A DNA stretch of 64,000 nt from Opitutia bacterium (lineage in GTDB: Bacteria; Verrucomicrobiota; Verrucomicrobiia; Opitutales; Opitutaceae). Location: NCBI GenBank assembly GCA_947472765.1, contig CANJCM010000002.1, positions 1 through 64,000 on the forward strand. The letters run 5' to 3'. The translations under genes were made by a program, and so were the position numbers. Position 1 is the stretch's first letter; each line of letters starts with the position of its first letter. Below are positions 26,369 to 51,255 of this stretch, in pieces. The notes under the pieces are model-generated. The model was not told the origin of the DNA. It saw nothing but the letters and a program-made list of their open reading frames with translations, and made no database searches.

Positions 26369-27040
26369 ATGGGAAAACTCGATCATCTCTTCGATCAAAA
26401 CCGGGCTTGGGCCGATGCGCTCCGTGCCCGCGACGCCGACTTTTTTCTGAAGCTCTCGCGGCAACAGTCGCCGGAATACCTCTGGATCGGATGCTCCGAC
26501 AGCCGCGTGCCGGCGAACGAGATCGTCAATCTGCTGCCCGGCGAGCTCTTCGTGCATCGCAACATCGCGAATGTCGTCGTGCACACGGATCTGAATTGTC
26601 TCTCGGTCATGCAGTTCGCCGTCGATGTCCTGAAGGTGAAGCACGTCATTGTATGCGGCCATTACGGCTGCAGCGGTGTCCGGGCCGCCTTGCGCTGTGA
26701 TCGCATCGGGCTCGCCGACAACTGGCTCCGGCACGTGCAGGACGTCGCGGAGAAGCACCAGCGTTGCATCCACGCGGTGCCGGGCGACCAGGTGCGGACC
26801 AACCGGCTCTGCGAATTGAACGTGCTCGAGCAGGTGAGCAACGTTTGCCAGACGACGATCGTGCGGGACGCCTGGCATCGCGGCCAGTCGCTGACGGTCC
26901 ACAGTTGGATTTACGGACTGAAGGACGGTTTGTTGCGGAACCTCGGCATGAGCATCACTAGCGTACCCGAGTTCGAGCCGCAGTACCGCGCGGCTCTGGC
27001 GGCCATCGAGGCGCGCGAGCCGTTCACCGCGGCGGTGTGA
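26369..27040 (+). CDS. can: beta-carbonic anhydrase
   Basis: IGCSDSRVPANEIVNLLPGELFVHRNIANVV, VCGHYGCSGVRAAL zinc ligands. Confidence 0.96.
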   Translation: MGKLDHLFDQNRAWADALRARDADFFLKLSRQQSPEYLWIGCSDSRVPANEIVNLLPGELFVHRNIANVVVHTDLNCLSVMQFAVDVLKVKHVIVCGHYGCSGVRAALRCDRIGLADNWLRHVQDVAEKHQRCIHAVPGDQVRTNRLCELNVLEQVSNVCQTTIVRDAWHRGQSLTVHSWIYGLKDGLLRNLGMSITSVPEFEPQYRAALAAIEAREPFTAAV

Positions 27041-27313: not shown

Positions 27314-28369
27314 ATGAAATCACCCATTCCGCTTTTTGCCGCCGCGTTCCTCGCCGCCGCGCTTCCGTCCAGCCACGCCCAGGACGGCGCCAGCACGGCG
27401 CCCATTGGCGCCGAGCGAAAGGTTGTCTCCTTCACCAATATCCAAATCAAGAATTTCGACGGCGAGAGCTTGGGGCGAATCACCGACCTCGGCATCGATC
27501 TCGTCAACGGCCGGATCGTCGAGGTCCTGGTCCAGACCGATGATTAGCTGGGACTCGGAAGCAAGATCGTCGCCGTACCGCCGCTGGCGCTGCTGCCGGA
27601 CGCCCTCCACGAGGTCTACTTGCTCAATGCCAGCATCGAGGTCTTCAAATCCGCCGCCGCCATCGATCTCAACGAATGGCTCGATGCCGGCCGGAGCGAA
27701 CGCGTCGCCGCCGCGTATATTCTTTTCGGCCAGGAGCCCTACTTCCTCGAGGCCGGCGATCTGGCGTCCAAGACGGACGCACGTCCCAAGGTGTCCCTCG
27801 GTTACGTCGAGCGCTCCAGCAAGATTCTCGATCTGCCCGTGGGCAATTTCCAGGGCCAGAAATTCGGCAAGGTGTGGTCCCTCACACTGGACATTCCGCG
27901 CGGCCGCATCCTCTCCATCATCGTGCTCGCGCCGGGAAACTTCCTGACCAAGAGCATCATCCCCGCGACGGCCCTGAGCTTCAACACCAACCGGGACGCG
28001 TTGCTCCTCGATGACACGAAGGTCGAGTACGCGGCGGAACCGCGGTATGTTTTAACCGAGCCCGCCTTCGGGCAGGATGCGAGCTCCGAGGAGCAGGCGT
28101 ACAAGGGTCCGCGGACTTCGGCCCCGCTCGAGCAGGGCACCAGCTATCGGGATGTCGACCGCACCGTGCTCATCACCCGGGGAATTCGCACCGCAAAACT
28201 CAACGGACTCCAGGTCCAGGTGGGCACCATCCATGGCCGCGTCACGCTTCGCGGCTGGGTGAACACGGAGGAACAACGAGTCCGGATTGGCGAAATCGCG
28301 ATTGCCGCGAGCCGCCTCGAGGTGGTGGACAACCAAATCACGGTCGGCCGGCCCCCGGGCCGGAAGTAA
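27314..28369 (+). pseudogene. PRC-barrel + BON domain secreted protein interrupted by one in-frame TAG (27545-27547)
   Basis: 27314-27547 (MKSPIPLFAAAFLAAALPSSHAQ...EVLVQTDD*) and 27620-28369 are in the same frame; the 24 intervening codons read LGLGSKIVAVPPLALLPDALHEVY; C-terminal BON-like VDRTVLITRGIRTAKLNGLQVQVGTIHGRVTLRGWV. Confidence 0.85.
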
Positions 28370-28408: not shown

Positions 28409-29194
28409 ATGAAAATTCATCCTCTCTTCCTGCCGGCCCTCGCGATTCTCGCCGGACTGCCGTCGACCAGCCGCGCCCTGCCCGTGGTCGACCTCGGCGC
28501 CGCCAGTTCCTACGCCGTACTGGCGGGCACCACGATCACCAGCACGGGCTTCACGGTGGTTGATGGCGATCTCGGGGTCAGCCCCGGTGCGACCATCTCC
28601 GGTTTTGCGGGTTTTGGCGGTGGCGGCGACGGCATCGTCAACGGCTCCATTCACGCGAACGATGTCTCCGCCGGGGATGCGCACACGGACATGGTCGCGG
28701 CCTACAACCTGCTTTCGGGCGAGACGGCAACGGTCACGGGCGTGACCTCCTTCGCCAATACGACCGTCACGCCCGGAGTGTACAATTCGGGCGCCAGCAT
28801 CTCGATCACCGGCAGCGTAGTCCTGAGCGGCAACGGCCTCTTCGTGTTTCAGATGGGCTCCACCTTGCTCACGGGCATCGGGAGCCAGGTCACCCTCGCC
28901 GACGGTGCGCTCGCGAAGAATGTCTACTGGCAGGTGGGCAGTTCCGCGACGCTCGGCGGTTCGTCGCTACTCGTCGGAACCGTGCTCGCGTACACTTCGA
29001 TCACCGCGGACGCCGGCGCGATCGTGAATGGAAGGCTGCTCGCCCAGAACGGGGCACTCTCCCTCTCAGGCAACACCATCACCGCGATTCCCGAACCCGC
29101 GACCTCGGCCCTGGCCATGGCGGGGTTCATCGGCGTCATCATCGGGTGGCGCAAACTCGGTCAGCGGCGTGCGCTGGCGAAGGTGTCGGCTTAA
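28409..29194 (+). CDS. ice-binding-like (DUF3494) protein with PEP-CTERM anchor
   Basis: DLGAASSYAVLAGTTITSTGFTVVDGDLGVSPG, NVYWQVGSSATLG, GTVLAYTSITADAGAIVNGRLLAQNGALSLSGNTI; C-terminal IPEPATSALAMAGFIGVIIGWRKLGQRR. Confidence 0.88.
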   Translation: MKIHPLFLPALAILAGLPSTSRALPVVDLGAASSYAVLAGTTITSTGFTVVDGDLGVSPGATISGFAGFGGGGDGIVNGSIHANDVSAGDAHTDMVAAYNLLSGETATVTGVTSFANTTVTPGVYNSGASISITGSVVLSGNGLFVFQMGSTLLTGIGSQVTLADGALAKNVYWQVGSSATLGGSSLLVGTVLAYTSITADAGAIVNGRLLAQNGALSLSGNTITAIPEPATSALAMAGFIGVIIGWRKLGQRRALAKVSA

Positions 29195-49452: not shown

Positions 49453-50259
49453 ATGTCCGAGAGCACCCACACCACCAATCCGTTCAGCGCGGTCCAAACG
49501 CCCGCCGTGGGCGTCAAGATCCAGCATCTCTCGAAGAGCTTCGGTACCGTTGAGGTGCTCAAGGATGTCTCATTCGAGGTCCAGCCCGGGGAGATCTTTG
49601 TGCTCATGGGCCCGAGCGGCTCGGGCAAGAGCGTCCTTCTGAAGCACATTGTCGGACTCGAGTTGCCCACGTCCGGTCAGGTGCTCGTCGACGGCAAGGA
49701 CGCCGCCGCCGAGGAAACCCGCGAACAGGTGCGCATGGCCCTCGTGTTCCAGGCGGGCGCGCTCTTCAACTCGCTCTCCGTCTACGACAATCTCGCGCTC
49801 TACCCGCGCGAGCATCGGGTGGGTAAGGAGAGCGAAATCCGCGAGAAGGTCATGCGGGCGCTCCAGATCCTGTCGCTCGACAACGCCGCGGCCAAGTTCC
49901 CCTCGGAACTGTCCGGTGGCATGCGCAAGCGCGTCGCCATCGCCCGCGCGCTCGTGATGGAGCCGCAGTTGATGCTCTACGACGAGCCGACGAGCGAACT
50001 CGACCCGGTCATGTCCGCGACCATCGCCGAGATTATTGCCACGCTGAAAGAGGAGTACCACGTGACCAGCATCGTGGTGTCGCACGATCGCGACCTGACC
50101 CTCGCGATTGGCGAGCGCGTGGGGATCCTGATGGGCGGCAAGCTGCTCTTCCTCGGCAATGGCGCCGAGCTCCGCGCGCCCAAGGATCCGAAGATTGCGG
50201 ATTTCCTGAGTCCGAAGATCGATGTGAAGAATCCCCGTTTTCGCCAATTGGAGACCTGA
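49453..50259 (+). CDS. mlaF: MlaF-family ABC transporter ATPase
   Basis: Walker A GPSGSGKS, signature LSGGMRKRVAIARAL, Walker B LMLYDEPTSELD. Confidence 0.95.
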   Translation: MSESTHTTNPFSAVQTPAVGVKIQHLSKSFGTVEVLKDVSFEVQPGEIFVLMGPSGSGKSVLLKHIVGLELPTSGQVLVDGKDAAAEETREQVRMALVFQAGALFNSLSVYDNLALYPREHRVGKESEIREKVMRALQILSLDNAAAKFPSELSGGMRKRVAIARALVMEPQLMLYDEPTSELDPVMSATIAEIIATLKEEYHVTSIVVSHDRDLTLAIGERVGILMGGKLLFLGNGAELRAPKDPKIADFLSPKIDVKNPRFRQLET

Positions 50260-50262
50260 ACC

Positions 50263-51255
50263 ATGAACAATGCCCAACAAACCGCCCGGGTCGGACTTTT
50301 CTTCCTCCTCGGCATCGCCCTCATCTGGGTGACCTTCGAAACCCTCAGCGGCGGAAAAGTCTTTCAGGACAAAGGCTATCAACTCATCGCCGGCTTCGAG
50401 AGCCTCAAGGAGCTCAAGGAGGGTGACGAAGTCCGGATGGCCGGCGTCAAAATCGGCGAGGTTCTCCACACCCGGCTGGCCGGCCGTCACGCCGAGGCCG
50501 TGCTGCGGATCGGCTCGCAATTCAGGGTCAAGAACGACGCGACCGCGACGATCGTGATGGCCGGACTCATCGGCACGAACTACATCGGCATCGATCTTGG
50601 ATCGCGGGATGCGCCGGATTTGGTGGCCGGCGCGGAAATCCGCACGAAGAACACGCCCGACATCAATTCTGTCATGTCCGAGATCGGCCAGCTCAGCCAG
50701 AAGCTCGAGGGCGCGCTCGGTAATCTCGGCACCGCCCTCGGCGACGATCCGAACAAGCCGGGTATCATCCAGAAGATCGACACCCTCCTGACCGAGAACC
50801 GGGAAAAAATCGGCGGCACCCTCGCGAACATCCAACAGATCACGGACAAGGTGAACAAAGGCGAAGGCACCCTCGGCCGACTGGTCAGCGACCCGAAACT
50901 GCACGACGAGCTCGTTTCCACGATCGAAGAGATCAAGCGCAGCGCCACCGAGGCGAAGACGATGATCGCGAGTGCCCAGGCCATCGTGGATCAGGTGAAA
51001 ACCGGCCAGGGCCCGGTCGGCACGCTCATCTACGACCAGAAGGCCGGCGACGACCTCAAGACCACCATCGCGAACCTTCGCTCGGTGTCCGACAAAATCG
51101 CCCGCGGTGAAGGCACGCTCGGCAAGCTGCTCAACGACGACACGATGCTGCGCGATACGCAGGCCATCATCAAGAAGGTGGATCGCACCCTCGACGGCTT
51201 GGACGATACCGGCCCGATCAGCGCCGTCGGCGCCGTGGCGAACGGCTTGTTCTAG
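50263..51255 (+). CDS. mlaD: MlaD-family MCE domain protein
   Basis: N-terminal TM, MCE domain (LKEGDEVRMAGVKIGEV...IGTNYIGIDLGS), C-terminal helices with KGEGTLGRLVSDPKLHDEL repeats. Confidence 0.94.
   Translation: MNNAQQTARVGLFFLLGIALIWVTFETLSGGKVFQDKGYQLIAGFESLKELKEGDEVRMAGVKIGEVLHTRLAGRHAEAVLRIGSQFRVKNDATATIVMAGLIGTNYIGIDLGSRDAPDLVAGAEIRTKNTPDINSVMSEIGQLSQKLEGALGNLGTALGDDPNKPGIIQKIDTLLTENREKIGGTLANIQQITDKVNKGEGTLGRLVSDPKLHDELVSTIEEIKRSATEAKTMIASAQAIVDQVKTGQGPVGTLIYDQKAGDDLKTTIANLRSVSDKIARGEGTLGKLLNDDTMLRDTQAIIKKVDRTLDGLDDTGPISAVGAVANGLF

Follow-up and report, generated by a model that had tools for sequence, protein, structure and literature searches.

Among described bacterial proteins, the closest counterparts of the one considered here are envelope proteins built from the PRC-barrel (PF05239) and BON (PF04972) domain families. 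OsmY has two BON domains, and the same number is given for DolP (YraP) in the title of the paper devoted to it (PMC7806268). Here, we analyze a gene of these domain families at positions 27314-28369, on the forward strand, of a 64,000-nucleotide stretch of an Opitutaceae genome (contig CANJCM010000002.1; the whole stretch is called the window below). Its putative product resembles OsmY and DolP in its C-terminal, BON-containing part, but whereas these two carry a pair of BON domains each, the window family combines a putative signal peptide, two PRC barrels and a single BON domain. A literature search for papers on the PRC-BON combination in Verrucomicrobia found none.

The gene is interrupted by one in-frame TAG, and two further kinds of described systems are therefore relevant. 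Namely, bacterial nonsense pseudogenes of accessory genes exhibit the same single premature stop in an intact frame with intact orthologues elsewhere, and likewise involve a patchy gene that has been lost independently and survives as an eroded remnant in a close relative; we see no essential difference between them and the present locus, the window copy being too recent for measurable relaxed selection. On the other side, frequent readthrough of in-frame stops has been proposed in bacteria, putative cases being recognized by a stop that several genomes share at one position (PMC7918605). In these genes, as in ours, coding signal and constraint persist past an in-frame TAG, but their stop position is shared among genomes, whereas each stop in the present gene is private to one genome. 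Taken together, we consider it probable that the locus is an accessory envelope-protein gene turned into a pseudogene by a very recent nonsense mutation. The parts of the gene are as follows:

27314..27547, forward strand: 5' part of the PRC-PRC-BON gene, with a putative signal peptide and the first half of PRC barrel 1; 77 amino acids up to the premature TAG
27545..27547, forward strand: premature in-frame TAG at residue 78, read from the translation and facing sense codons in aligned orthologues
27548..28369, forward strand: 3' part in the same frame, with the remainder of PRC 1, PRC 2 and the BON domain, and a normal TAA end

Coding signal and domains across the stop

A single frame runs from the ATG at 27314 to the TAA at 28367-28369, covering 351 residues and interrupted just once, by the TAG at residue 78 (context GAT GAT TAG CTG GGA). 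An initial annotation of the window had described a PRC-barrel/BON gene with one in-frame TAG and full coding on both sides, and translation, codon scores and a Pfam PRC match extending across the stop all bear this out. In particular, the N-terminal part taken alone falls below the cut-off for PRC (E=0.012) and the C-terminal part gives 3.4e-6, while the frame read across the stop gives 1.5e-12, in two PRC stretches, together with a BON domain at E=1.1e-6. The family had been named correctly in the initial annotation. An intact orthologue yields the same PRC/PRC/BON result. The N-terminus, MKSPIPLFAAAFLAAALPSSHAQ, resembles a signal peptide by eye, and its start aligns with those of the relatives. 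A profile built from the orthologues matches OsmY (8rjx, E=9e-8) and YraP (7a2d, E=4e-4) across the BON domain and, weakly, the PRC protein 3htr. Judging from what is known of the PRC and BON families, the window protein may act at the envelope.

The coding signal on both sides of the TAG exceeds chance. A scan of codon scores in 2.46 of the 4.97 Mb of the window's genome covered 11,627 stops that lie in frame between two open stretches. Of those flanked by coding signal in both directions and followed by no start codon within 12 codons, the window TAG ranks first. Its scores are 0.45 before the stop, 0.40 over the first 20 codons after it and 0.43 beyond, as compared with a median 24-codon score of 0.33 for real genes in the same genome. 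Orthologues align across the stop without a break, and the three nearest ones that were first found share 66-69% identity with the 3' part. On the protein tree, the end branch of the window copy (0.34, against a median of 0.39) gives no sign of relaxation, and after the stop the copy has only 2 private changes in 61 near-invariant columns. Any inactivation should consequently be recent on the scale of species divergence. Such preserved constraint leaves a recent mutation and an assembly error indistinguishable, and fits a functional gene as well.

Could the gene instead now encode two separate working products, an exported 77-residue peptide and a cytoplasmic protein made from an internal start? 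The initial annotation had placed open reading frames at 27314-27547 and 27620-28369 in one frame, which is correct, and had taken the second to begin with ATG, which it does not, the codon being TTG:

27620..28369, forward strand: mechanically called open reading frame of 249 amino acids from TTG, with GAGG 5 bases upstream; its product would have no signal peptide and only half of PRC 1

The GAGG would suit such a split, as would the position of the breaks found in this gene family, all of which fall in its first third and hence leave PRC 2 and the BON domain whole each time. However, the cut lies inside PRC barrel 1. The fold predicted for an intact orthologue (mean pLDDT 71.9, mostly 80-92 in the first barrel) places the stop column just past strand 3 of 6, and the downstream product would have a broken first barrel and no means of export. 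What is more, the arrangement is common to no relative; two separate proteins with the same stop, which according to the initial annotation would speak against an interrupted gene, were not seen among them. We thus regard a split as extremely improbable.

Distribution and breakage among relatives

Orthologues with at least 46% identity are present in 23 of 252 Opitutaceae genomes, including the window's own, the other 22 lying at 46-68%. Any match at E<=1e-20 is found in 26 of the 252, the excess over 23 being diverged relatives. The gene thus occurs in only about a tenth of the family genomes, which argues that its loss is common. Outside the Opitutaceae, one orthologue was found (G076, about 40% identity). 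Aligning relatives at the interrupted codon, as had been proposed, reveals sense codons, mostly Ser (TCN) or Phe and also Thr, Ala, Ile and Val; among the 22 other Opitutaceae genomes, no orthologue in which the column aligns has a stop at residue 78.

That said, some of these relatives are broken elsewhere. One orthologue (G051, L060:3001-3951) has a single TAG at residue 51, another (G198, L062:1728-2771) a single TGA at residue 32, and a third (G169, L066:1679-2655) a frameshift between residues 97 and 104, so that the breaks in the window and these three relatives all lie within the first 104 of 351 residues. The stop-bearing copies alone, three of the 23 (TAG 78, TAG 51 and TGA 32), need three separate changes on the protein tree. 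In the genus mate G004, where the carbonic anhydrase next door is 91% identical to the window's, the PRC-BON gene is reduced to a remnant of 63 amino acids (L007:1459-1650, on G004:C349), in which the signal peptide runs on in frame into the segment found directly after the TAG in the window, while the remainder of the gene is gone. Degenerate extra fragments of the gene are also present in G048 and G134. From the repeated breaks, the remnant and the fragments, the PRC-PRC-BON gene is seen to be accessory, patchy and repeatedly lost in the Opitutaceae.

The same comparisons bear on a technical origin of the stop, namely that the consensus sequence is in error and that a sense codon, and with it a working gene, is present in the organism or in most of its population. 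The window genome is a draft of 157 contigs with 95.9% completeness, all orthologues with record titles come from metagenome-assembled genomes, the title of the contig with the TGA case (L062) includes 'cov_1.39', and the window gene exhibits no decay. Moreover, the stops in the three genomes each differ from the relatives' usual codon by G-to-T or C-to-A. Random nonsense changes are expected to be of this type in about 15-50% of cases; three of three is therefore a weak hint at oxidation-type errors. On the other hand, the erosion in G004, which is genuine, and the frameshift in G169 show that this gene does get lost, and the two further genes with a single TAG in the scanned 2.46 Mb are few enough for ordinary pseudogenes. 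Weighing these points, we think a consensus error unlikely, although it is the strongest of the alternatives to a nonsense pseudogene.

How, then, would a nonsense pseudogene have come about? A single substitution would create TAG at codon 78, translation would halt there and leave an exported half-barrel fragment of 77 residues, which is not expected to fold, and the part of the protein beyond the stop would no longer be made, or at trace level only. Frame, codon bias and conserved residues would still be intact because the change is young relative to the age of the species. The stop would be real in the organism, and the organism would presumably tolerate the loss, the gene being dispensable in some habitats. 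Several observations do not sit easily with this picture. The window copy has no second lesion and no measurable decay, so that inactivation itself is something we infer, and a purely technical stop would look identical. The four interruptions are all confined to the first 30% of the gene, a clustering which chance does not require. Finally, breakage is not equally common everywhere: in the accessory family of ice-binding-like proteins encoded next door, none of 22 matches has an internal stop. The carbonic anhydrase was also considered as a control for stop frequency, many of its matches listing one stop, and was not used, because the positions of these stops had not been read and may represent variable C-terminal ends.

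Decoding of TAG in the window's genome

If TAG were suppressed or leaky, some full-length protein would be made and the gene would be functional. Apart from the frame, codon bias and conserved residues kept past the stop, and the proposed frequency of such events, the argument for readthrough comes from other stops in the genome. In a first codon scan, 5 of 798 TAG codons scored above 0.2, as against 2 of 5286 other stops, and reading of the candidates in the scanned 2.46 Mb left three real interruptions, all TAG, the remainder being gene junctions or antisense frames. Besides the window gene, these are a hybrid histidine kinase (G000:C9:39237; L118:19237), whose receiver domain is continuous but for one in-frame TAG, and a gene of about 1077 codons for a lectin-like PEP-CTERM protein with repeats (G000:C16:3469; L087:3469), which is also broken by one in-frame TAG and which failed the stricter codon scan; no comparable TAA or TGA case was found in the same 2.46 Mb. 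However, codon usage in this genome predicts TAG as the outcome of about 60% of random nonsense changes, so the excess is not evidence of recoding, and three of three has a probability of about 0.2 under random mutation.

The decoding apparatus points the same way. Release factor 1 (RF1) is intact (470.6 bits), and TAG terminates 219 of 1099 long genes (20%). No tRNA with a CUA anticodon was found among the tRNA genes read, the other 9 of 42 being judged by pattern only. A whole-genome pattern of CUA anticodon plus T-loop gave three matches and no CUA tRNA in this 96% complete draft, two of the matches lying inside tRNAs with other anticodons and one coinciding with none of the 42 listed tRNA genes. 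The search for a pyrrolysyl-tRNA synthetase gave nothing over the cut-off; weak matches reached 21-24 bits, and such sub-cut-off matches occur in most control genomes too. No stimulatory RNA structure was seen either, since the 100 bases after the stop fold worse than their shuffled versions (z=+1.56). With RF1 intact, TAG a common terminator and the TAG excess to be expected from codon usage, we reject genome-wide amber recoding. For the window gene itself, whose stop position is not conserved in the orthologues, readthrough seems to us very improbable. Of the three explanations offered by the initial annotation, nonsense mutation, sequencing error and readthrough, the first is thus favored, the second calls for inspection of the reads, and the third failed every test made.

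A related idea is that in the Opitutaceae an early stop has repeatedly been placed in this gene as a tolerated low-expression state, with trace readthrough or internal initiation keeping some full-length or C-terminal product. If true, it would explain both the clustering of breaks in the first third and the absence of decay, and amber leakiness in the lineage would account for the histidine kinase and the lectin-like gene as well. We consider it highly improbable.

Neighborhood and meaning of the locus

The PRC-PRC-BON gene is flanked by the following genes:

26369..27040, forward strand: upstream neighbor, a beta-carbonic anhydrase, which also adjoins the PRC-BON remnant in the genus mate G004
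28409..29194, forward strand: downstream neighbor, a DUF3494 ice-binding-like protein with a PEP-CTERM tail, 39 bases 3' of the PRC-BON gene

The downstream gene belongs to a recurrent neighborhood. Namely, in 9 of the 23 family genomes that bear an orthologue, a DUF3494 ice-binding-like gene is found no more than about 3 kb from the PRC-BON gene (window 28409-29194; L029, L033/L058, L060, L059, L061, L045/L064, L046 and L050/L066). Elsewhere in the window, a TGA at 50257 (50257-50265) was considered as a second interruption and rejected: the genes for an ABC ATPase and an MlaD-like protein are in the same frame on its two sides, the next ATG following one codon later, and the site is an ordinary operon junction.

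Taken alone, the locus matters little, being probably one more recently broken accessory gene. Codon usage in this GC-rich genome leads one to expect an excess of TAG among in-frame stops, which is, by itself, no sign of recoding; were readthrough to prove true nonetheless, the locus would offer a testable natural case of amber leakage outside model bacteria. For the family as a whole, the finding shows that the PRC-PRC-BON gene, with a product predicted to be exported, has been lost repeatedly in the Opitutaceae.
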